From positions 1-55,257 of the forward strand of contig VGXN01000006.1 of NCBI GenBank assembly GCA_016873335.1: a DNA stretch of 55,257 bases. The letters run 5' to 3'. Below the pieces are notes generated by a model that did not search any database, was not told where the DNA came from, and saw only the letters and a program-made list of their open reading frames with translations. The DNA comes from Phycisphaerae bacterium. GTDB taxonomy: Bacteria; Planctomycetota; Phycisphaerae; Phycisphaerales; SM1A02. Below, in pieces: positions 24,708 to 46,054 of the stretch. Position 1 is the stretch's first letter. The number at the start of each line of letters is the position of its first letter. The translations under genes and the position numbers were made by a program.

Positions 24708-25334
24708 ATGACCGAACGCTACAAGTCTGTGCTGCTCTTTGGCGCGCCTGGCGTGGGCAAGGGAACCCAAGGCAAGATCCTCGGCAAGATTCCTGGGTTC
24801 TTCCATCTTGCGTGCGGCGACGTCTTTCGATCGCTGGATATGACGAGCGATCTCGGCAAGCAGTTCCTCGCCTACTCCAAGCGCGGCGAACTCGTGCCGG
24901 ATGAACTGACGATCGAGATGTGGCGGCAGAACATGCACGCGCAGACCGTGCTCAGCCTGTTCAAGCCGAAGCAGGATCTGCTGGTGCTCGATGGCATCCC
25001 GCGCAACGTGGCGCAGGCGAAGGCGCTGAAGAAGTCGCTTGATGTGCTGAAGGTGATCCATCTCTTCTGCGGTGATGAAGAGGCAATGATGCAACGGATG
25101 CGGCGCCGCGCACTCAAGGAGAACAGGATGGACGATGCGGACGACAAGGTCATCCGCCACCGCTTCGAGGTCTATCACAAGGAAACGCACCCCGTCCTTG
25201 ACTTCTACTCCCCATCGATCGTGGTGAACATCGATGCGGTGGGTTCACCGGCGCAGGTGTTCATGCGCGTCCTTGATGTCGTGGTGCCCGTGCAGGACGC
25301 GCACTTCAACCAACCCGCCGCTTCAGCGAACTGA
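24708..25334 (+). CDS. adk: Adenylate kinase family protein
   Basis: 208 aa. Reversible AMP + ATP to 2 ADP. P-loop GAPGVGKGTQG, AMP-site CGDVFRSLD, DGIPRN in place of the usual DGFPRT, and the Arg-rich catalytic stretch DDKVIRHRFEVYHKETHPVLDFY. The LID is short, without zinc cysteines. One of the few genes here with a textbook Shine-Dalgarno, consistent with high expression. A nucleoside monophosphate kinase of related specificity cannot be excluded. Confidence 0.9.
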   Translation: MTERYKSVLLFGAPGVGKGTQGKILGKIPGFFHLACGDVFRSLDMTSDLGKQFLAYSKRGELVPDELTIEMWRQNMHAQTVLSLFKPKQDLLVLDGIPRNVAQAKALKKSLDVLKVIHLFCGDEEAMMQRMRRRALKENRMDDADDKVIRHRFEVYHKETHPVLDFYSPSIVVNIDAVGSPAQVFMRVLDVVVPVQDAHFNQPAASAN

Positions 25335-25381
25335 ACGAATACAGCGTGTCGATCGGCGCGTCGCACACCGCGCCCGACTCA

Positions 25382-26416
25382 TCAGGGTGCGCCCGGCACA
25401 TCGAGATCGGCGGGCTCTGTGCTGCCCCGCCTTCGGACGGCAATGGGCTTCGGAGCAAACCGCTCTTCCGCCTGCTGCAGCGCGAGCAGTCGCCGCTCCA
25501 GCACGAGACTCCGCGACATCGACGGGAATTGCCCCTCAAACTTGTCCAAATCGGCTGCCGTCGTCAGTTGCATGTCGATATTCAGACGCTGCTCGACGAA
25601 GCCACCCTGACCGTCAAGTCTCGGTCGCCCGCGCTCATCGCGTTCCGGGCGCGCGACGCGGAGTTTCACGGTGTCGCCAGGCAGGCGCGACTGGATGAGA
25701 TCCACCAGATCATTGGAGTTGGAAATCGGCTTTCCATCGATCTCCTCGATTCGGTCACCGACCTTCAGCACCGTGCTCGCGGGCATGCCCGGAAGCAGCA
25801 TGATGATCTCGACTCCGGGTCGCTGCGGATCGCCGCTCGGTTGCATGCGGATGCCCAGCGCGCCGCGAGGCAGCGCAATCACCTTCTCGCGCGCCGCAGC
25901 AAGCAGACGCTCGCGCTGCTCCGTGCTGAGTTGCTCGCGGTCGAGCACGGCAAAGAGCTGCTCAGGCGCGACGGAAGCATCCGTCAGAACGCGGCTCGCC
26001 TCACTTCGCTCGTTGAACACAGCGGAGTCGAGTGCAGCGACCGCCGCCCGCACCTTCGCCGAAATCTTCACGGACGCCAAGACCTCCGGCGACCACAAGC
26101 GAAGCACTTCGGGTGCTGGCGTGGTGGGCTGCCCCATGAGATCGCCCCGCCACAGCTGCGGCTGCTGAAGCGCAGGGTTGACCGGAACTTTGCGAACATT
26201 CTCCTGCACATCGGCAGCGACCCCTCCGCGAATGCGCAGCGCGTCCACCTGTTGCCCCTGCGCATCGCGCACAGCACCCTGACTTGCCCATGCAAGCGCA
26301 GTCGAACCCGCCGCCGCGAGCAGGGCTGCCGCGACTGTGGCGCGCTTGCGCTGCCATGCATGCCGTGCATGCGAGACCTGCGAGGTCCGCAACGGCGCTG
26401 CGGCATCACTCGACAT
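25382..26416 (-). CDS. Membrane-anchored or exported PDZ-domain protein
   Basis: 344 aa from MSSDAAAPLRTSQ; the frame upstream lies in yicC. A basic N-terminus and one hydrophobic segment (about 28-45) suggest a signal anchor. A helical middle contains LLAAAREKVIALPRG, followed by one PDZ domain (about 215-305: GALGIRM, PGMPASTVLKVGDRIEEIDGK, LVDLIQSRLPGDTVKLRV). No protease catalytic triad is present, so it is not a DegP/HtrA enzyme. The start overlaps the end of yicC by 11 bp, making it the last gene of the tpiA-secG-yicC unit. Its partner is unknown. Confidence 0.75.
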   Translation of the reverse strand: MSSDAAAPLRTSQVSHARHAWQRKRATVAAALLAAAGSTALAWASQGAVRDAQGQQVDALRIRGGVAADVQENVRKVPVNPALQQPQLWRGDLMGQPTTPAPEVLRLWSPEVLASVKISAKVRAAVAALDSAVFNERSEASRVLTDASVAPEQLFAVLDREQLSTEQRERLLAAAREKVIALPRGALGIRMQPSGDPQRPGVEIIMLLPGMPASTVLKVGDRIEEIDGKPISNSNDLVDLIQSRLPGDTVKLRVARPERDERGRPRLDGQGGFVEQRLNIDMQLTTAADLDKFEGQFPSMSRSLVLERRLLALQQAEERFAPKPIAVRRRGSTEPADLDVPGAP

Positions 26417-36594: not shown

Positions 36595-37632
36595 ATGCGT
36601 TTCACTCAACATTCTTCCATCATTGCCTCCTTGCTTGCCGCCCTCTCTTGCGCCGCTGTGCTCCACGCGGATTCCATCCAAGGCTCGTGGCAGGCACCTG
36701 CGCTTGACCGCTGGATGTACCCGTTCAACGCAACGCCAGGAACACGCCCGACCATTTCGACCTTCGGATCAGATCCCGCGTCTGCGGATTTCGACAGCCG
36801 TGATGGACAGTTCATCGTGGCATTCGATACGGCGCCAATCGTTCCGGGCGGACTTGGTGCGGAGAACTACACAGTGACGAGCGCCGTGCTGACCGTGGAG
36901 TTCGCGAATGACCGCATCGTGGCCTATGACCCGACACCAGATTCGTGGCAGACCTTTCTCGCACCGGGCGACCCGGCGTTTGTGGCCGATGCCGATGCGG
37001 GGCAGCCGATCGAACTCTTTGGATGCGGATTTCGAAACGGCTTCAGTGCGACGAACTTTGTGGAGAACTCGCCGTATGCGACGCCACCAAACCCACTTGC
37101 CTCGGGCGTGCGAAACGCGTTCGCACTCAGCTTCGATGGCTCAGGCGCACCAATCGATGTGTCGAACAATCCTCGGCTGGGCTTTGATCCCCAGCAATTT
37201 GCAACTGGGCAGATCAGCGAACTCGCACCTGGGGAACTGATTCCGCTGCGCGCCAAGATGACCTTCAGCGTGTCCGTTTCAGAGCCGCAGATTCAGGCGT
37301 ACCTCCGACAAGGTCTCAACCGCGGGCGCGTGTTCTTGGTCATCAGCAGTCTGACCTTTGTGCAGCAGCAGGGCGGGAACTTCCCCGCCTTCTACGCGAA
37401 GGAAAGCCCCCTCATTGCGGTGGGGCAGGCGCGCCCCGCTTCACTCGCACTGTCCGTGGAGACGGGACCGAACTGCGCCGCCGCAGACATCAACTGCGAT
37501 GGAGCCGTCAACGGCACGGACTTGACGGTCCTTCTGTCGAGTTGGGGCTCGAGCGGCAGCGGAGACATCAATGGCGACGGTTCGGTGAACGGCACCGACC
37601 TGACGGCGCTGCTCGGCGCCTGGACGAACTGA
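36595..37632 (+). CDS. Secreted protein with C-terminal dockerin-like repeat pair
   Basis: 345 aa. Sec signal peptide (cleavage near VLHADS). The central region (about 30-285) is beta-rich with no recognised catalytic motif. The end is a type I dockerin-like pair of calcium-binding repeats: DINCDGAVNGTDLTVLLSSWG (about 299-319) and DINGDGSVNGTDLTALLGAWT (about 324-344). Dockerin ends on non-cellulosomal proteins are very common in Phycisphaerae. It may act as an attachment or sorting tag. I cannot assign the main domain. Confidence 0.8.
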   Translation: MRFTQHSSIIASLLAALSCAAVLHADSIQGSWQAPALDRWMYPFNATPGTRPTISTFGSDPASADFDSRDGQFIVAFDTAPIVPGGLGAENYTVTSAVLTVEFANDRIVAYDPTPDSWQTFLAPGDPAFVADADAGQPIELFGCGFRNGFSATNFVENSPYATPPNPLASGVRNAFALSFDGSGAPIDVSNNPRLGFDPQQFATGQISELAPGELIPLRAKMTFSVSVSEPQIQAYLRQGLNRGRVFLVISSLTFVQQQGGNFPAFYAKESPLIAVGQARPASLALSVETGPNCAAADINCDGAVNGTDLTVLLSSWGSSGSGDINGDGSVNGTDLTALLGAWTN

Positions 37633-38097: not shown

Positions 38098-38361
38098 TCA
38101 CTCGATCCCGCCAGCGCCAACCAGTTCGCCGACTTCGGCCTCCGACCTGCACAGCGCATCCACGAAGGCCTTTCGCACTTGGGACACGCGATGACGAATG
38201 GCAGCCAGCGCCGACTCCACCTCATCCTCATCCACCTCGAGGACTTGGGAAATCTCGCTTGCCGGCATTTTGTCGATGTAATGCAGTTCCACCACGAGAC
38301 GCTCAAAACCACTCAAACTATGCGCCAAAAGTGACACAAGTTGGGCTGATTTTTCGAGCAT
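38098..38361 (-). CDS. Stand-alone sigma-70 region 4-like helix-turn-helix protein
   Basis: 87 aa from MLEKSAQLVSLL, with GGAG 8-11 nt before the ATG. Residues about 18-60 follow the sigma region 4 pattern: LSGFERLVVELHYIDKMPASEISQVLEV then EDEVESALAAIRHRV. Region 2, needed for the -10 element, is absent, so it cannot be a complete sigma factor. The helix that should read the -35 element is unusually acidic (EDEVES). The gene starts 44 nt inside the end of the HD-GYP gene in another frame, so the two are co-transcribed and probably coupled. It may be a regulator or a sigma decoy; this is inference. Confidence 0.6.
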   Translation of the reverse strand: MLEKSAQLVSLLAHSLSGFERLVVELHYIDKMPASEISQVLEVDEDEVESALAAIRHRVSQVRKAFVDALCRSEAEVGELVGAGGIE

Positions 38362-39064
38362 GTGCGGTCTCCTTGCACGCTTGCGCTCTCGGATGCCCCC
38401 ATGGCATTCCGTCGCCACTACAAGGTGCAGAATAGCACAAATCCTCATTCTGTCCACTCACAACCATAATTCTCTCCGAATTGGCATCGCCCCACTGCTG
38501 CAACGCGCAGTCCGATTGCCACAGATCGGCAAAGTGCACCGCGAGTTCGGGATCAAACTGCGAACCCGCGCAGCGCAGTACCTCATCAACAGCATGCCGC
38601 GATGAGCGCCGGGGTGCATAGGGGCGATCAGAGCAGATGGCATCAAATGCGTCGGCAAGAGCGATGATCCGAGATGCCAACGGAATCGCATCTCGTTGCA
38701 GCCGATCGGGATAGCCCTGTCCGTCCCACCTTTCGTGATGGCTGCGAACGCCACTTCTGGCAAAGTGCAACTCGTTGAATGCGCCGATCAGCCGGGCCCC
38801 CGTTTCAGGATGACGACGGATGACGGAGAACTCCTCCTCGCTCAATCGACTCGGCTTGAACAGGATCTCATCTGGAACGGTCAACTTCCCAAGATCATGA
38901 ATCATCGCAGTCGTGTGGACGTCCTCGATCTGGCCCTGATCGAGTCCGAGATGCGCAGCAAGTGCCGCTGCGAGTGATGCCACACGATGACAGTGCCCTG
39001 GTCCCTCGCCTTCCTTCGCCTCAATGAGACGGACGAGCACTTCGATGCAGTTGTTGCGTTCCAT
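38318..39064 (-). CDS. Minimal HD-GYP domain protein (predicted cyclic-di-GMP phosphodiesterase)
   Basis: 248 aa. The domain starts almost at residue 1 with no receiver, PAS or membrane part. Metal and substrate motifs: HCHRVASLA, IHDLGKLTVPDEIL (His56, Asp57), HPETGARLI, HHERWDGQGYPD (about 109-120) and RIIALADAFDAI. All canonical HD-GYP residues are present, so c-di-GMP hydrolysis is expected. A roughly 50-residue tail with several Cys follows. GGAGGGC directly precedes the ATG. The 3' end overlaps the sigma-like gene by 44 bp. Confidence 0.88.
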   Translation of the reverse strand: MERNNCIEVLVRLIEAKEGEGPGHCHRVASLAAALAAHLGLDQGQIEDVHTTAMIHDLGKLTVPDEILFKPSRLSEEEFSVIRRHPETGARLIGAFNELHFARSGVRSHHERWDGQGYPDRLQRDAIPLASRIIALADAFDAICSDRPYAPRRSSRHAVDEVLRCAGSQFDPELAVHFADLWQSDCALQQWGDANSERIMVVSGQNEDLCYSAPCSGDGMPWGHPRAQACKETAHARKISPTCVTFGA

Positions 39065-39150: not shown

Positions 39151-40404
39151 ATGCGCGTTCACCCGTTTTTTGCCCTGCGAGCGGCTGCGAACCGCGTTTC
39201 ACAGGTGGCATGCCCCCCCTACGACGTGGTCGATTTTGCGGGCGCGGCGGCTTGCGCGACCAACCCAAACAGCTTCATGCGTGTCGTGCGCCCTGAGGTG
39301 GACTTCGGACACGATCAGGACCCGCACTCGCCAATCGTGTACGCGAAGGGACTGGACAATCTGCGCGGACTGCTTGAACGCCGCTGCATGGTGCGCGAGC
39401 CGCGGGAGAACTTCTTCGTCTATCGGCAGGCGGCACAAGGACGAACGCAGAGTGGATTGGTGTGCTGTGTGGATGTCGCGGACTATCTCAGCGGCGTCAT
39501 CGCACGGCATGAACTGACCCGCCCCGACAAGGAGCAGGACCGTACCGACCACATGGTCGCCGTGGGCGCACACTGCGAGCCCGTGTTCCTCACCGTGGCA
39601 GGGCTCGATGGCTTTGTGGCGCAACTTTCGCGCGATATGAATCATCGCCCGCTCTTTCACTTCACGGCACCAGACAAGGTGATCCACACGCTTTGGGATG
39701 CCACTTCGGTCGACACCTACCGAAAGCTGTTTGCGGATGTGCCGAGAATCTTCATCGCGGACGGTCATCATCGGAGTGCGGCAGCCGCGCGTGCCGCAGC
39801 AGCGCTGTCCAATGCAGGGAGTGGCATTGATCGCACGGAACTCGGGCGCTTCCCCGCGGTGATCTATCCGGCTGAGGAGCTGCTCATCCTCCCCTATCAC
39901 CGCTTGGCGCGGCTCGCGCCAGGGCAAAGAACAGAGCATGTGGAACGCGCGCTCAGCGAGGTGGGAGTCCTCGATCCGGTCGACGAAAGCGATGGGCCCG
40001 CGCCGCGCGCGAAGGGGGAGGTCACGATCTACCTGAACAAGTCCTGGTGGCGGCTGCGCCTGCCGCGCGCCAACGGCGATTCACCCACGGATCTCCTCGA
40101 CGTTGTCCGCCTCTCGCGCACCGTGCTCGGCCCCATCCTCGGGATCACCGACGAACGCACCGATCCACGGCTGGCGTTCCACGGCGGATGCTCCCCGCAG
40201 GAGCTGTCCGCACACGTGGAGAACGGCAGCGCGGACATCGCATTCGCCATGCATCCCACATCGATCGATGAACTGCTGACCGTTGCGGGCGCAGGACTCA
40301 TCATGCCGCCCAAGTCCACCTGGTTCCACCCGAAGATCCGCAGCGGCCTGTTCCTGCACTCGTTCTCGCCCGCGCTCGATGCATCGCTAGCATTGCAGGC
40401 ATGA
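39151..40404 (+). CDS. DUF1015 family protein with DGHHR motif (possible free-serine kinase relative)
   Basis: 417 aa, a typical DUF1015 length. Starts MRVHPFFALRAAANRV and VACPPYDVV, both family marks. IFIADGHHRSAAA (Asp204-Arg208) resembles the DGHHR motif of SerK/SbnI-type ParB-fold free-serine kinases. It is the first gene of an operon with SerA-like and SerC genes, overlapping the SerA-like start by 4 bp (ATGA). The pairing points to serine or phosphoserine metabolism, but the reaction is not established from this sequence. TACCAT lies 10 nt before the ATG. Confidence 0.8.
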   Translation: MRVHPFFALRAAANRVSQVACPPYDVVDFAGAAACATNPNSFMRVVRPEVDFGHDQDPHSPIVYAKGLDNLRGLLERRCMVREPRENFFVYRQAAQGRTQSGLVCCVDVADYLSGVIARHELTRPDKEQDRTDHMVAVGAHCEPVFLTVAGLDGFVAQLSRDMNHRPLFHFTAPDKVIHTLWDATSVDTYRKLFADVPRIFIADGHHRSAAAARAAAALSNAGSGIDRTELGRFPAVIYPAEELLILPYHRLARLAPGQRTEHVERALSEVGVLDPVDESDGPAPRAKGEVTIYLNKSWWRLRLPRANGDSPTDLLDVVRLSRTVLGPILGITDERTDPRLAFHGGCSPQELSAHVENGSADIAFAMHPTSIDELLTVAGAGLIMPPKSTWFHPKIRSGLFLHSFSPALDASLALQA

Positions 40405-41666
40405 GCGAACAGGAGCCGACCGTGTTCGCCACGCCACTGGCGATGGCTTCGCGTGTGCTGGTGGTGGACCGCCTTGGTGCACATGCGCTCGACGGGCTCC
40501 GCGCCGCGGGCTGCGACGCCATCCAGAATCCGATGCTCGAGGGTGCAACGCTGCCCGATGCGATGCGCGACATCGAGCCTCACATCCTCGTCACGCGTGA
40601 TGCCTGCGTGGATGACCGAGTGCTTGGCGCCACGGAGCGGCTCGCGCTCGTGATCGGAACAGGACCGACGATCGAGCGCATCGATGTGGAAGCGGCAAGC
40701 AACCGCGGCATCTTCGTGGCGCACTGCCCGGGGCGCACCGCATCGGCCGTGGCGGAACTCGCATGGACCTTGATCCTCGCATGCGACCGCGATCTGGTGA
40801 ACGCAACGCAGCGCGCGCGCACCGGGCAGCGCAGCGAAGGAGGACGCGAGGCTCCAGGGATCGCGGGTCGAACACTCGGTGTCGTTGGACTCGGTCAGGT
40901 GGGACAGGAGGTTGCGCGGCGCGGCATCGCATTCGGCATGCATGTCGTCGCGTGGAGCCGGCACATCACGGAAGCGCGGTGCAACGCGCTCGGCATCGAT
41001 TACTGCGCGAACCTCGTCAATCTTGCAAAGCTCTCCGATGTGGTCAACGTCAGTGTGACAGGCAACGAGGAGTCCGAAGGTCTGCTCGGCGACAAGTTCT
41101 TCCAAGCGCTGCGCACAGGGTCGACCATCGTCAACACCAGTCTCGGAAGCGTGGTGAACGAACGTGCCCTGCTCAACGCCTGCCGCTCGAAGGGCATTCG
41201 CGCAGGACTCGACCTGCATTCTGCGGATGGGATGTCGAGCCCTGGTTCGCCGCTTGCCGAACTGCTGGCGGAACCTGGTGTCATCGCCACGCTTGATGCG
41301 GCTGCGCACACGGCACAGGCCCGCGAGTCGATCGATCACGATGTCGTTCGCATCGTGCGTCAATGGCTCGAAACAGGGACGGTGCACTCGTGCGTGAACC
41401 GTTCATCGGTCAGCAGCGCAACGACGCTGATCCATGTGCGTCATCTGAACCGCCCAGGCGTGCTCGTCGGCATCTTTGATGTGCTTGGACAGGCGAGCAT
41501 CAATGTGGAGGAGATGGAGAACGTCATCTGCGAAGGCAACCAAGCCGCGATCGCACGCATTCATTTGAACGAGCTGCCGACGGAACGCACCATGCGGCAG
41601 ATCCGTGAGGCGCCGCATGTGCTCGGCGTGCATGTGCAGTCCATTCGGCGCGACGCGCGCGATTGA
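40401..41666 (+). CDS. SerA-like 2-hydroxyacid dehydrogenase with ACT domain, catalytic residues lost
   Basis: 421 aa with the layout of D-3-phosphoglycerate dehydrogenase: substrate domain, NAD domain with VVGLGQVGQEVAR (about 160-172), and a C-terminal ACT domain (about 343-421) as in serine-feedback-regulated SerA. The three catalytic residues of the family are changed. Arg of NTARGGxVDE is Leu248 (NTSLGSVVNE), Glu of DVFxxEP is Asp276 (DLHSADG), and His of TPHxGxST is Asp299 (ATLDAAAHT). The reading frame is intact and flanking residues are well conserved, so this is not decay. It may be a sensor, a partner of SerC, or use different chemistry. The ATG overlaps the DUF1015 stop; serC follows 12 nt later. 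Confidence 0.85.
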   Translation: MSEQEPTVFATPLAMASRVLVVDRLGAHALDGLRAAGCDAIQNPMLEGATLPDAMRDIEPHILVTRDACVDDRVLGATERLALVIGTGPTIERIDVEAASNRGIFVAHCPGRTASAVAELAWTLILACDRDLVNATQRARTGQRSEGGREAPGIAGRTLGVVGLGQVGQEVARRGIAFGMHVVAWSRHITEARCNALGIDYCANLVNLAKLSDVVNVSVTGNEESEGLLGDKFFQALRTGSTIVNTSLGSVVNERALLNACRSKGIRAGLDLHSADGMSSPGSPLAELLAEPGVIATLDAAAHTAQARESIDHDVVRIVRQWLETGTVHSCVNRSSVSSATTLIHVRHLNRPGVLVGIFDVLGQASINVEEMENVICEGNQAAIARIHLNELPTERTMRQIREAPHVLGVHVQSIRRDARD

Positions 41667-41678
41667 AATCCCCCAACG

Positions 41679-42776
41679 ATGGGACGCATCTGGAACTTTT
41701 CAGCAGGTCCTGCCGCTATGCCGGAGGAGGTGCTGCGGGAACTCGGCGGCGATCTGCTCGATCTCGAAGGCACCGGGATCGGCATCTTGGAGCATTCCCA
41801 TCGGCAGCCGCCGTTCGACCGCGTGCTTGAGGGTGCGCTCGATTGTTGCCGCCGCCTCGGTGGGATTCCCGACTCGCACGAGATCCTCTTCGTTCCAGGC
41901 GGTGCGACATTGCAGTTCACGCTCATTCCACTGAACCTGCTGCCAGACGGCGGCGTGGCGGACTACCCCGATACGGACATCTGGACCGCGAAGGCGATCG
42001 TGGAAGCGCGCGATGCCGTGCCGAACGCGCAGATCGTGGTTCCGTTTGAGGGGAAACGCTGCGCCTACGACCATGTGCCGAGCGACGCCGAGTGTCCTGC
42101 GAGCAAGGGCGCCGTGTACCTGCACTACTGCTCCAACAACACGGTGCACGGCACTCAATACCAACGACTCCCCCGCTGCGCGGATGGCGCAGTGCTGGTC
42201 AACGATGCGAGCAGCGAGATCTTTTCCCGTCCCATGGACTGGTCCAAGCATGGCCTGGTGTACGCATCGGGTCAGAAGAACCTCGGCGTGGCCGGCATGT
42301 CCGTCGTCATCATTCGCCGCGATCTTCTGCAGCGCGCGCCGCGAAAGTTGCCCTCGATGCTCTCCTACGCCGCCCATGCGAAGGCAGGCAGCCGCATCAA
42401 CACGCCACCCAACTTCGCCATCCATGCGCTGTGGCGCATGTGCCAGTGGATGGTGCGCGAGGGTGGTGTGGGGGAGATGGAACGCCGCTCGCATGCGCGC
42501 GCGACCTTGGTGTGGGAGACGATCGACGCCTCGGGCGGGTTCTACACACCGCTTGGGCAGGCATCCTGCCGCTCCGTGATCAATGCGTCCTTCCGCCTGC
42601 CGAACGCACAGCTCGACCAACGCTTCTGGAAGGATGCGGCAAAGGATGGCATCGATGGGCTGGCGGGTCACCGAGAGGCAGGCGGCATCCGCGCATCGAT
42701 GTACAACTCCTGCCCCTTGCCCGCAGTCGAAGCGCTTGTTGCGTTCATGCACGAGTTCAAGCGCACAAACGGCTGA
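41679..42776 (+). CDS. serC: Phosphoserine aminotransferase
   Basis: 365 aa. Converts 3-phosphohydroxypyruvate and glutamate to phosphoserine. Marks: IWNFSAGPAAMPEEVL, ILFVPGGATLQF, YCSNNTVHGTQY, PLP-lysine in YASGQKNLGVAG and GLAGHREAGGIRASMYNS. All look functional. Third gene of the serine operon. Its stop touches the stop of the convergent DUF1080 gene with no gap. Confidence 0.95.
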   Translation: MGRIWNFSAGPAAMPEEVLRELGGDLLDLEGTGIGILEHSHRQPPFDRVLEGALDCCRRLGGIPDSHEILFVPGGATLQFTLIPLNLLPDGGVADYPDTDIWTAKAIVEARDAVPNAQIVVPFEGKRCAYDHVPSDAECPASKGAVYLHYCSNNTVHGTQYQRLPRCADGAVLVNDASSEIFSRPMDWSKHGLVYASGQKNLGVAGMSVVIIRRDLLQRAPRKLPSMLSYAAHAKAGSRINTPPNFAIHALWRMCQWMVREGGVGEMERRSHARATLVWETIDASGGFYTPLGQASCRSVINASFRLPNAQLDQRFWKDAAKDGIDGLAGHREAGGIRASMYNSCPLPAVEALVAFMHEFKRTNG

Positions 42777-43923: not shown

Positions 43924-44589
43924 TCACCCCACCCCAAAGTCGAGTGGTGGAGGCGCCTGCAGTGCCTCGCGCCCCATCGCGAGATCGAAGCACTCCCGGG
44001 TGGTTGCCCAGGACTCGCCACCCATGCGTGCGACCGCCCGGAGTCGCTGCGGGTCGACGGCACCATCCGCCAACAGCGCATCATCGATCCACGCATGAAC
44101 GACTTCGCCCACCACGATGTTGCCGCCGCCCGCCTGCCCCGCCGCAAGACGCACGACCTGGAGCGTGCGACACTCAAACACCGCCGGACTCGCCGCCACC
44201 GATGGCGGTGCGACCACCGTGCTTCGGCGCTCGTCCAGCCCCGCGAATGTGAACTCACTTTCTCCAAATGGCAGCGACTCGGCGGCCGCGGCGACGCGCC
44301 GCACGATCGCCTCCGTGCAGACACTGACGGTGAACTCCCCCTGCCCACCCTCGGTGCGCGGCTTGGCGTTCCGAAGGGAATCCTTCTCGCTCCCATCACG
44401 GTTGTTCACGGGACAGAAGAGCAGTGACATCGGACGCGATCCGATCCCCGTGAAGAATGAGAAGGGCGCGAGGTTCGCCCGTCCCGCCAATGAGCATGTA
44501 CCGACCACCGCGATCGGTCGCGGCACGATGACACCGATCAGCAAGCGGTAGCAGGCAGCGATCGACTCCTGGCTCGGCGTGAAGTGCAT
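43924..44589 (-). CDS. Flavin reductase-like (FMN-binding split-barrel) protein
   Basis: 221 aa from the ATG at 44589; a GTG 9 nt upstream (44598) is also possible, but TACCGT lies exactly 7 nt before the ATG. Family marks: VIVPRPIAVVGTCSL, ANLAPFSFFTGIGSRPMSLLF and FTVSVCTEAIVRRV. Proteins of this family bind FMN and act as NAD(P)H:flavin oxidoreductases or related enzymes. The substrate is unknown. Divergent from sthA. Confidence 0.86.
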   Translation of the reverse strand: MHFTPSQESIAACYRLLIGVIVPRPIAVVGTCSLAGRANLAPFSFFTGIGSRPMSLLFCPVNNRDGSEKDSLRNAKPRTEGGQGEFTVSVCTEAIVRRVAAAAESLPFGESEFTFAGLDERRSTVVAPPSVAASPAVFECRTLQVVRLAAGQAGGGNIVVGEVVHAWIDDALLADGAVDPQRLRAVARMGGESWATTRECFDLAMGREALQAPPPLDFGVG

Positions 44590-44596
44590 GGCGTCC

Positions 44597-44623
44597 ACGG
44601 TATCGCCGAGCCGCTCCTATGCT
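44597..44623. promoter_or_regulatory. Divergent leaderless promoters for the flavin reductase gene and sthA
   Basis: Minus strand: TACCGT (complement of 44597-44602), 7 nt before the ATG at 44589. Plus strand: TATGCT (44618-44623), 6 nt before the sthA ATG. Both genes code for pyridine-nucleotide- or flavin-linked enzymes. Confidence 0.45.
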
Positions 44624-44629
44624 GCGCCC

Positions 44630-46054
44630 ATGACCGAGGCGTATGAGTTCGATCTGACCGTCGTGGGGAGCGGACCGGCCGGACAGTCTGCCGCGATCCA
44701 AGCGGCAAAGCTCGGGAAGCGTGTGGCGATGGTCGAGCGTCGCCGTGGAGTGGGCGGCGTTTCCGTTCACTTGGGAACCCTTCCGTCCAAGACTTTCCGC
44801 GAGGCGGTCCTCAGCCTCCAGCGCGGCACGGTGCGCAAGTCGTTGGAAGCGGCGGGCGCGGATCCGATTCGCCTGACGATGCCGATGCTGATCGACCGGG
44901 TCAGCGGCGTCATCAACGAAGAGCAGCAACTCATCCGCCAGAACCTTCTGCGGAACGATGTGCGGATCCTGTCGGGCTTCGCCTCTTTCATCGATACGCA
45001 CACCATCGCGGTCGACAGCCCCGAAGGCGATCGACGCGTGACGACTGCGTTCACGCTGCTTGCCACGGGAACCCGCCCCGTGATCCCCGCCTCGTGCCCC
45101 GATCATTCGAGTGATGACAACCCCATCGTGTTGACAAGCGACGGCGTGTTGGCACTGCGCGAGATTCCTCGGACGATGCTTGTGGTCGGCGGCGGCGTGA
45201 TCGGCGTGGAGTACGCATCATTCTTCGCGACGCTCGGCACCAAAGTGACGCTGATCGAACGAGCGGAACGCCCAATCTCGTTCATGGATACCGAGACGAT
45301 CGACGAGATGATTCATGACATGCGGCTGCAAGATGTGATCTTCCGCTGCGGTGAGGCGGTCGTTCGCATCGCCTGCATCGACGAGAATCCGCGGCGGGTT
45401 GTGGTCGAACTGGAAAGTGGCAAGCGCATGACGGCGGATGTCGCGCTCATCTCTGCGGGGCGGCAGGGCTGCACCGAAGGCCTGCATCTCGATGCGATCG
45501 GTCTTGCGGCAGATTCACGCGGACGCATCAGCGTGAACGAGAACTACGAGACCACGGTGAAGGGCGTGTACGCAGCGGGCGACCTGATCGGCTTCCCTGC
45601 GCTCGCTGCGACAAGTTCGGCGCAAGGGCGCATCGCCGCGTGCCACATGTTCGGCACCCCAACTGCACCGATGGGCAATGACTACCCGCTTGGCATTTAC
45701 AGCATCCCCGAGATGAGCAGCGCTGGTGCAACGGAGCAGACACTCACCAAAGACAAGGTTCCGTATGAGATTGGCGTGGCGCGCTACAGCGAGATCGCAC
45801 GAGGCAAGATTGCCGAGACATCGGATGGCTTCCTGAAGCTGATCTTCCACCGCGAGACGCGTCAGCTTCTGGGCGTGCACATCCTCGGTTCGAACGCGAC
45901 GGAACTGGTGCACATCGGACAGGCCGTGATCCGACTGAAGGGCGGACTCGACTTCTTCCTCACCAACGTCTTCAACTACCCAACCTACGCCGAGTGCTAC
46001 AAGGTGGCGGCGTACAACGCCTCCAACAACCTGATCAACAACACACTGGCGTGA
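44630..46054 (+). CDS. sthA: Soluble pyridine nucleotide transhydrogenase (Si-specific)
   Basis: 474 aa from MTEAYEFDLTVVGSGPAG. FAD- and NAD(P)-binding glycine motifs GSGPAGQSA and VVGGGVIGVEYAS. It belongs to the disulfide reductase superfamily but lacks the CxxxxC redox pair: the region reads GGVSVHLGTLPSKTFR, as in SthA where the active disulfide is lost. Moves reducing power between NADPH and NADH. The C-terminal dimer domain ends FNYPTYAECYKVAAY. Length is normal. Confidence 0.9.
   Translation: MTEAYEFDLTVVGSGPAGQSAAIQAAKLGKRVAMVERRRGVGGVSVHLGTLPSKTFREAVLSLQRGTVRKSLEAAGADPIRLTMPMLIDRVSGVINEEQQLIRQNLLRNDVRILSGFASFIDTHTIAVDSPEGDRRVTTAFTLLATGTRPVIPASCPDHSSDDNPIVLTSDGVLALREIPRTMLVVGGGVIGVEYASFFATLGTKVTLIERAERPISFMDTETIDEMIHDMRLQDVIFRCGEAVVRIACIDENPRRVVVELESGKRMTADVALISAGRQGCTEGLHLDAIGLAADSRGRISVNENYETTVKGVYAAGDLIGFPALAATSSAQGRIAACHMFGTPTAPMGNDYPLGIYSIPEMSSAGATEQTLTKDKVPYEIGVARYSEIARGKIAETSDGFLKLIFHRETRQLLGVHILGSNATELVHIGQAVIRLKGGLDFFLTNVFNYPTYAECYKVAAYNASNNLINNTLA

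Follow-up and report, generated by a model that had tools for sequence, protein, structure and literature searches.

Type II phosphoglycerate dehydrogenases (SerA), such as E. coli SerA and yeast Ser33, have the domain order substrate, dinucleotide and ACT, and a functional enzyme is recognised by a catalytic Arg/Glu/His triad, i.e., Arg240, Glu269 and His292 in E. coli SerA. In the ACT domain of the E. coli protein, H344, N346 and N364 are the residues that we take to bind serine. Two departures from this scheme have been described. In the type IIIK SerA subfamily the His is replaced by Lys and the Glu is missing, yet the enzyme is catalytically active (PMC6303947), and in ANGUSTIFOLIA, a plant CtBP sister clade, the 2-hydroxyacid dehydrogenase fold is kept without the catalytic residues and serves a non-enzymatic role, for which the dinucleotide domain matters (PMC6303947, PMC5469197). 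At the end of the serine pathway, many bacteria that carry SerA and SerC lack any known phosphoserine phosphatase, as in 450 gut genomes (PMC9026213), and the same gap is seen in Clostridium perfringens (PMC7311316). Serine and phosphoserine are also the substrates of SerK of Thermococcus and SbnI of Staphylococcus (PMC5120207, PMC12704722), and Thermococcus SerK converts serine into phosphoserine with ADP (PMC5120207).

In the window, i.e., the whole stretch of 55,257 nucleotides that was analysed, a gene for a SerA-like protein of 421 aa (termed SerL here; 40401..41666, forward strand) lies between a gene for a 417-aa DUF1015 protein (39151..40404, forward strand) and serC (41679..42776, forward strand). 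The SerC product scored 387 bits against NF003764 (cut-off 253) and was the sole phosphoserine aminotransferase of its family found in the genome; in the genomes of the genus, serC was present in one copy, inside this operon. SerL is coupled on both sides, in agreement with the first-pass annotation: its start codon overlaps the DUF1015 stop in the ATGA at 40401-40404, and 12 nt separate its stop from the serC start. The frame of SerL is open, its GC and GC3 match those of the neighbouring genes, and the DUF1015-SerL-SerC order is retained across most of the family; scans of the locus for promoters and terminators gave no signal. The order is rearranged in genus g19 (e.g., L150 and L155), where DUF1015 lies downstream of SerL on the opposite strand, ~1.1 kb off. 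Also encoded nearby in the window are a dockerin-containing protein (36595-37632, forward strand), an HD-domain protein (HD_5; 38318-39064, reverse strand), a 3-keto-disaccharide hydrolase (PF06439; 42777-43436, reverse strand) and a pyridine nucleotide-disulphide oxidoreductase (44579-46054, forward strand).

SerL was assigned by domain profiles, alignment to E. coli SerA and a structure model. A profile search found PF00389 and PF02826, and with its Rossmann GxGxxG motif the protein belongs to the 2-hydroxyacid dehydrogenase superfamily. Its AlphaFold2 model (mean pLDDT 87, pTM 0.72) had E. coli SerA and yeast Ser33 as best PDB matches, over the full length at ~10 A rmsd, and because of this large deviation the domain arrangement is predicted to differ from theirs; the substrate-plus-dinucleotide part alone came within 2.4-2.7 A of the Pyrococcus and human enzymes. 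SerL thus resembles type II SerA in domain order, fold and serine-site residues, but at ~28% identity it lacks the Arg/Glu/His triad, Asn108 and some of the substrate loop. The dinucleotide-binding segment, located by alignment, runs from GLGQVG (residues 163-168) to AWSR (40887..40961, forward strand), and its Rossmann glycines are invariant in the 17 genus members of 17 that cover them. The ACT domain, placed by alignment and model, occupies 41418..41645 (forward strand), and its H348, N350 and N368, which correspond to H344, N346 and N364 of E. coli SerA, are identical in 17/17 members of the genus, so that serine binding by SerL is predicted from residue conservation. The proposal that the NAD motif and the ACT domain are kept therefore stands for the dinucleotide motif and the ACT residues, with a small correction at the NAD-type Asp: S186-R187 occupies the place of E. 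coli D181 in SerL and in its intact relatives alike. With Ser-Arg in place of this Asp, NADP(H) is no less likely than NAD(H) to be the dinucleotide that SerL would bind; an [ST]R fingerprint for NADPH has been described in a related subfamily (PMC6303947).

In alignment with E. coli SerA, the triad reads Leu248 (for Arg240; codon 41142..41144), Asp276 (for Glu269; 41226..41228) and Asp299 (for His292; 41295..41297), all on the forward strand. This is the loss claimed in the first-pass annotation, which had also placed the surrounding motifs correctly (VAEL at 117, GLGQVG at 163, NTSLGSVVNE at 245, DLHSADG at 271 and ATLDAAAHT at 296). SerL scored well below the NCBIfam phosphoglycerate dehydrogenase cut-offs (188 bits against 454, and 142 against 404). 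Its genus was sampled with the window genome and 18 others, 17 of which carry an orthologue at 59-89% identity; in the remaining one, G001, none of the three operon genes was found. The Arg240 position has lost its Arg in all 18 SerL proteins, the window's included (Leu in 15, Pro in 2, Glu in 1), and the His292 position is replaced in the same 18 by Asp, Gln, Arg or Thr; the Glu269 position holds Asp, Glu, Ala, Val or Ser. The altered form is thus conserved, and the normal residues, sought in close relatives as evidence against it, were seen only in more distant genera of the family. Since R/E/H is present in most family relatives beyond the genus, the alignments indicate a lineage-specific loss and not an error. 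The window genome is a draft (2.0 Mb, 228 contigs, 90% complete), in which a mutation confined to one genome, or an error of sequencing or assembly, might be suspected; losses of this kind recur in 18 separate genomes of the genus, which effectively rules this out. In a separate scan, the named close relatives were planctomycete drafts from a deep lake cast and from Baikal. The change is concentrated at the active site: when SerL of the genus was compared with 92 full-triad orthologues over the columns at least 95% conserved in those 92, 6 of 7 active-site columns, a set chosen from general knowledge of the family, were changed vs 9 of 76 other conserved columns (Fisher p 8e-5). The substrate-site residues A82 and N108 are changed too.

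Loss of the active site is not accompanied by decay of the gene. Within the genus, pairwise dN/dS was 0.03-0.11 for SerL, and in the same genomes it was 0.04-0.12 for SerC, 0.05-0.09 for the intact SerA and 0.07-0.13 for DUF1015. A value as low as that of SerC argues that SerL is in use. In genus g18, where SerL has another set of losses, the median was 0.07. SerL hence combines conserved loss of catalytic residues with ongoing purifying selection, as expected of a pseudoenzyme.

A second, intact serA, whose presence had been proposed as a check, was found elsewhere in the window genome (contig C14, 20742-21983; 406 codons from the ATG). Its product is of the E. coli type (50% identity to E. 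coli SerA), has the R/E/H residues and passes the NCBI phosphoglycerate dehydrogenase model (546 bits, cut-off 404). With an intact E. coli-type SerA in 19/19 genomes of the genus, the use of another dehydrogenase, one of the options raised in the first-pass annotation for serine synthesis in this lineage, is the most likely one. The window genome encodes a third 2-hydroxyacid dehydrogenase with R/E/H intact (L051; G000 contig 15, ~24906-25772, minus strand), and nothing marks it as a phosphoglycerate dehydrogenase.

Across the family, SerL was scored as damaged when Arg or His was replaced, or when Glu was replaced by anything but Gln. Damaged SerL was found in 41 genomes (genera g1, 18; g2, 2; g6, 2; g18, 9; g57, 9; g60, 1), and every one of these 41 also has the E. 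coli-type SerA. Where SerL is present and a second SerA was undetected, Arg and His are kept (35/35 genomes). A further 59 genomes hold both proteins with Arg and His of SerL intact, which is why the second SerA is seen to permit the loss of the triad without forcing it. Damaged SerL from g1, g2, g6, g18 and g60 is grouped in a single clade of the SerL tree (SH-aLRT 99), with g57 nearby. Partial states exist: g57 has lost only the Arg, and g18 the Glu and His but not the Arg. In a tree-aware view, the link of triad loss to the second SerA depends on ~2 evolutionary events (1-2 independent pairs), too few for it to be statistically established. SerL relatives with Glu replaced by Gln only (R/Q/H) occur in genera g37, g39 and g42 and in another family of the order, f2 (L043-L046), a substitution also known from formate dehydrogenases; the f2 proteins stop before the ACT domain and have no adjacent DUF1015, which lies elsewhere in the genome.

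The DUF1015 protein upstream of SerL matches PF06245 (E 8e-71) and carries a DGHHR motif (aa 204-208; 39760..39774, forward strand). Its structure model (pLDDT 94, pTM 0.92) has a fold like that of the free serine kinases: the nine best solved matches were SerK/SbnI entries and 1vk1, a Pyrococcus protein (Z 11.4-13.4), and the next ones, Noc, sulfiredoxin and ParB, reached Z <=4.8. Sequence searches, among them a profile search of PDB sequences, detected no SerK/SbnI relative, and DUF1015 is longer than these kinases. A literature search for DUF1015 with serine, or for PF06245, found no paper, and none was found whose title or abstract dealt with the function of DUF1015; a survey of the ParB fold names 'DU1015' among the domains fused to it. 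The SerK-like predicted fold, the exclusion of SerB described below and the operon make DUF1015 a strong candidate for the enzyme of the phosphoserine-to-serine step. The direction would be set by the pathway, since Thermococcus SerK runs the opposite way, and other phosphatases could serve as an alternative for this step.

SerB, the phosphoserine phosphatase of the HAD family, would occupy the same proposed step with an unrelated fold, and the window genome has no SerB above the cut-off. Among 151 genomes of the family, 96 have an intact DUF1015, 48 a SerB-like protein, none both and 7 neither; one of the 48 SerB-like proteins is a fragment at a contig end, and six of the 7 genomes with neither are <=77% complete. 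None of the family's SerB-like proteins reached the curated TIGR00338 cut-off, but the phosphatase motifs DFDST and GDGxTD are present in each of the ten whose sequences were inspected. In seven of these ten (L205, L208-L212 and L214; genera g17, g43 and g62), the phosphatase and an E. coli-type SerA form one in-frame fusion, with open reading frames of ~550-714 codons, e.g., L208 (G156 contig 96, 8686-10560), and in g44 SerB-like and SerA likewise share one open frame of the same length. In four genera with a SerB-like protein (g6, g18, g43 and g44), the ORF in the DUF1015 place before SerL has only ~216-247 codons and lacks DGHHR (e.g., L218:2290-3003 and L220:3330-3977), and in g57, which also has SerB-like, it is strongly diverged, with EGHHR in some members. 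PF06245 detected the four remnants sampled from named genomes and had no match to the g6 ORFs before SerL. The dN/dS of the remnants (median 0.10 in g43 and 0.14 in g18; 0.27 for the single g6 pair) points to some persisting purifying selection, and for this reason they may be non-catalytic partners too. On the SerL tree there are at least four coincident changes of DUF1015 and SerB-like. The exclusion within the family has a Fisher p of 3e-32 with relatedness ignored, and a tree-aware test had only 2-4 independent pairs, too few to be informative. Among 128 genomes drawn from across the phylum, SerB-like was found in 20/83 with DUF1015 and in 33/45 without it (p 8e-8, not tree-corrected), so that the exclusion is weaker there yet still present.

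These observations, i.e., the residue losses, the conservation, the purifying selection, the presence of an intact SerA and the operon structure, all of them read from genome sequences, are best accounted for, with a probability of about 0.65, if SerL descends from a working phosphoglycerate dehydrogenase and is now a conserved pseudoenzyme, the reaction having been taken over by the separate SerA. Serine would first have been made by an ancestral DUF1015-SerA-SerC operon; 3-phosphoglycerate oxidation would then have passed to a second SerA, of the E. coli type and encoded elsewhere in the genome, after which the operon SerA would have lost its substrate-binding and catalytic residues and been retained as a folded, dinucleotide-binding and, by residue conservation, serine-binding protein. 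At present, the separate SerA would convert 3-phosphoglycerate to phosphohydroxypyruvate, SerC of the operon would form phosphoserine, and DUF1015 would yield serine by a SerK-like phosphotransfer; SerL most likely serves the operon enzymes without catalysing a reaction, either as a subunit or as a partner that senses ligands. SerC and DUF1015 are the first candidates for its partner because of their proximity. A bolder proposal, which we advance tentatively as possible, is that DUF1015 is in Phycisphaerales and other bacteria a SerK-fold enzyme that replaces SerB and makes serine from phosphoserine, possibly by passing the phosphate to a nucleotide and not to water, with the operon SerA homologue, in this lineage, as a non-catalytic subunit, binding serine and a dinucleotide, of a SerC/DUF1015 assembly.

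A narrower form of the pseudoenzyme explanation, which we find rather doubtful, makes SerL a regulator that senses NAD(P)H and serine and binds to SerC, much as the first-pass annotation suggested. The preserved ligand residues and the closeness of the serC start fit such a role, for which ANGUSTIFOLIA, with the same fold devoid of catalytic residues and a non-enzymatic function, sets a precedent (PMC6303947, PMC5469197). However, the partner could instead be the other SerA, DUF1015 or some further component, and genus g43 retains an intact-triad SerL without an adjacent serC. ANGUSTIFOLIA is eukaryotic, stands outside any serine operon and, to our knowledge, has no ACT domain. The idea that the ACT domain came under tighter constraint once the catalytic residues were lost was rejected: its within-genus divergence relative to the rest of the protein was no different in damaged and in intact genera (p 0.92), and a sensor role gains no specific support from selection on this domain.

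That SerL is inactive is likely, although not certain, from its sequence, since the active type IIIK enzymes mean that loss of these residues is in itself no proof. It might accordingly still catalyse a reaction by another mechanism, an option that the first-pass annotation raised, or on another substrate, as a neofunctionalised 2-hydroxyacid dehydrogenase would: it is under strong purifying selection, its dinucleotide motif is intact, type IIIK SerA functions without the Glu/His pair (PMC6303947), and an Asp or Gln could share in catalysis. A new catalytic site should settle on one residue, however, and within one clade the His position holds Asp, Gln, Arg, Thr, Gly, Cys or Asn, the Arg240 position is Leu, Pro, Glu, Gln, Lys or Arg across members, and the substrate site is changed as well; as the Arg is also lost, we consider continued catalysis unlikely. 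It is far less probable still that SerL is a functionless, decaying relic, retained only by its place between two needed genes. Its absence from several genera of the family that have the other SerA suggests that it is dispensable there, but a dN/dS of ~0.07 over many species, a frame open in all of them and a constraint equal to that of SerC speak against decay.

If SerL is a conserved pseudoenzyme, it would provide a clean natural case of the conversion of an enzyme, in which the active site has decayed throughout a genus while the protein remains under strong selection, and for which intact relatives, the partial states of g57 and g18 and the likely replacement enzyme are all on hand. In addition, the operon context offers, in DUF1015, a testable candidate for the recognised phosphoserine phosphatase gap.
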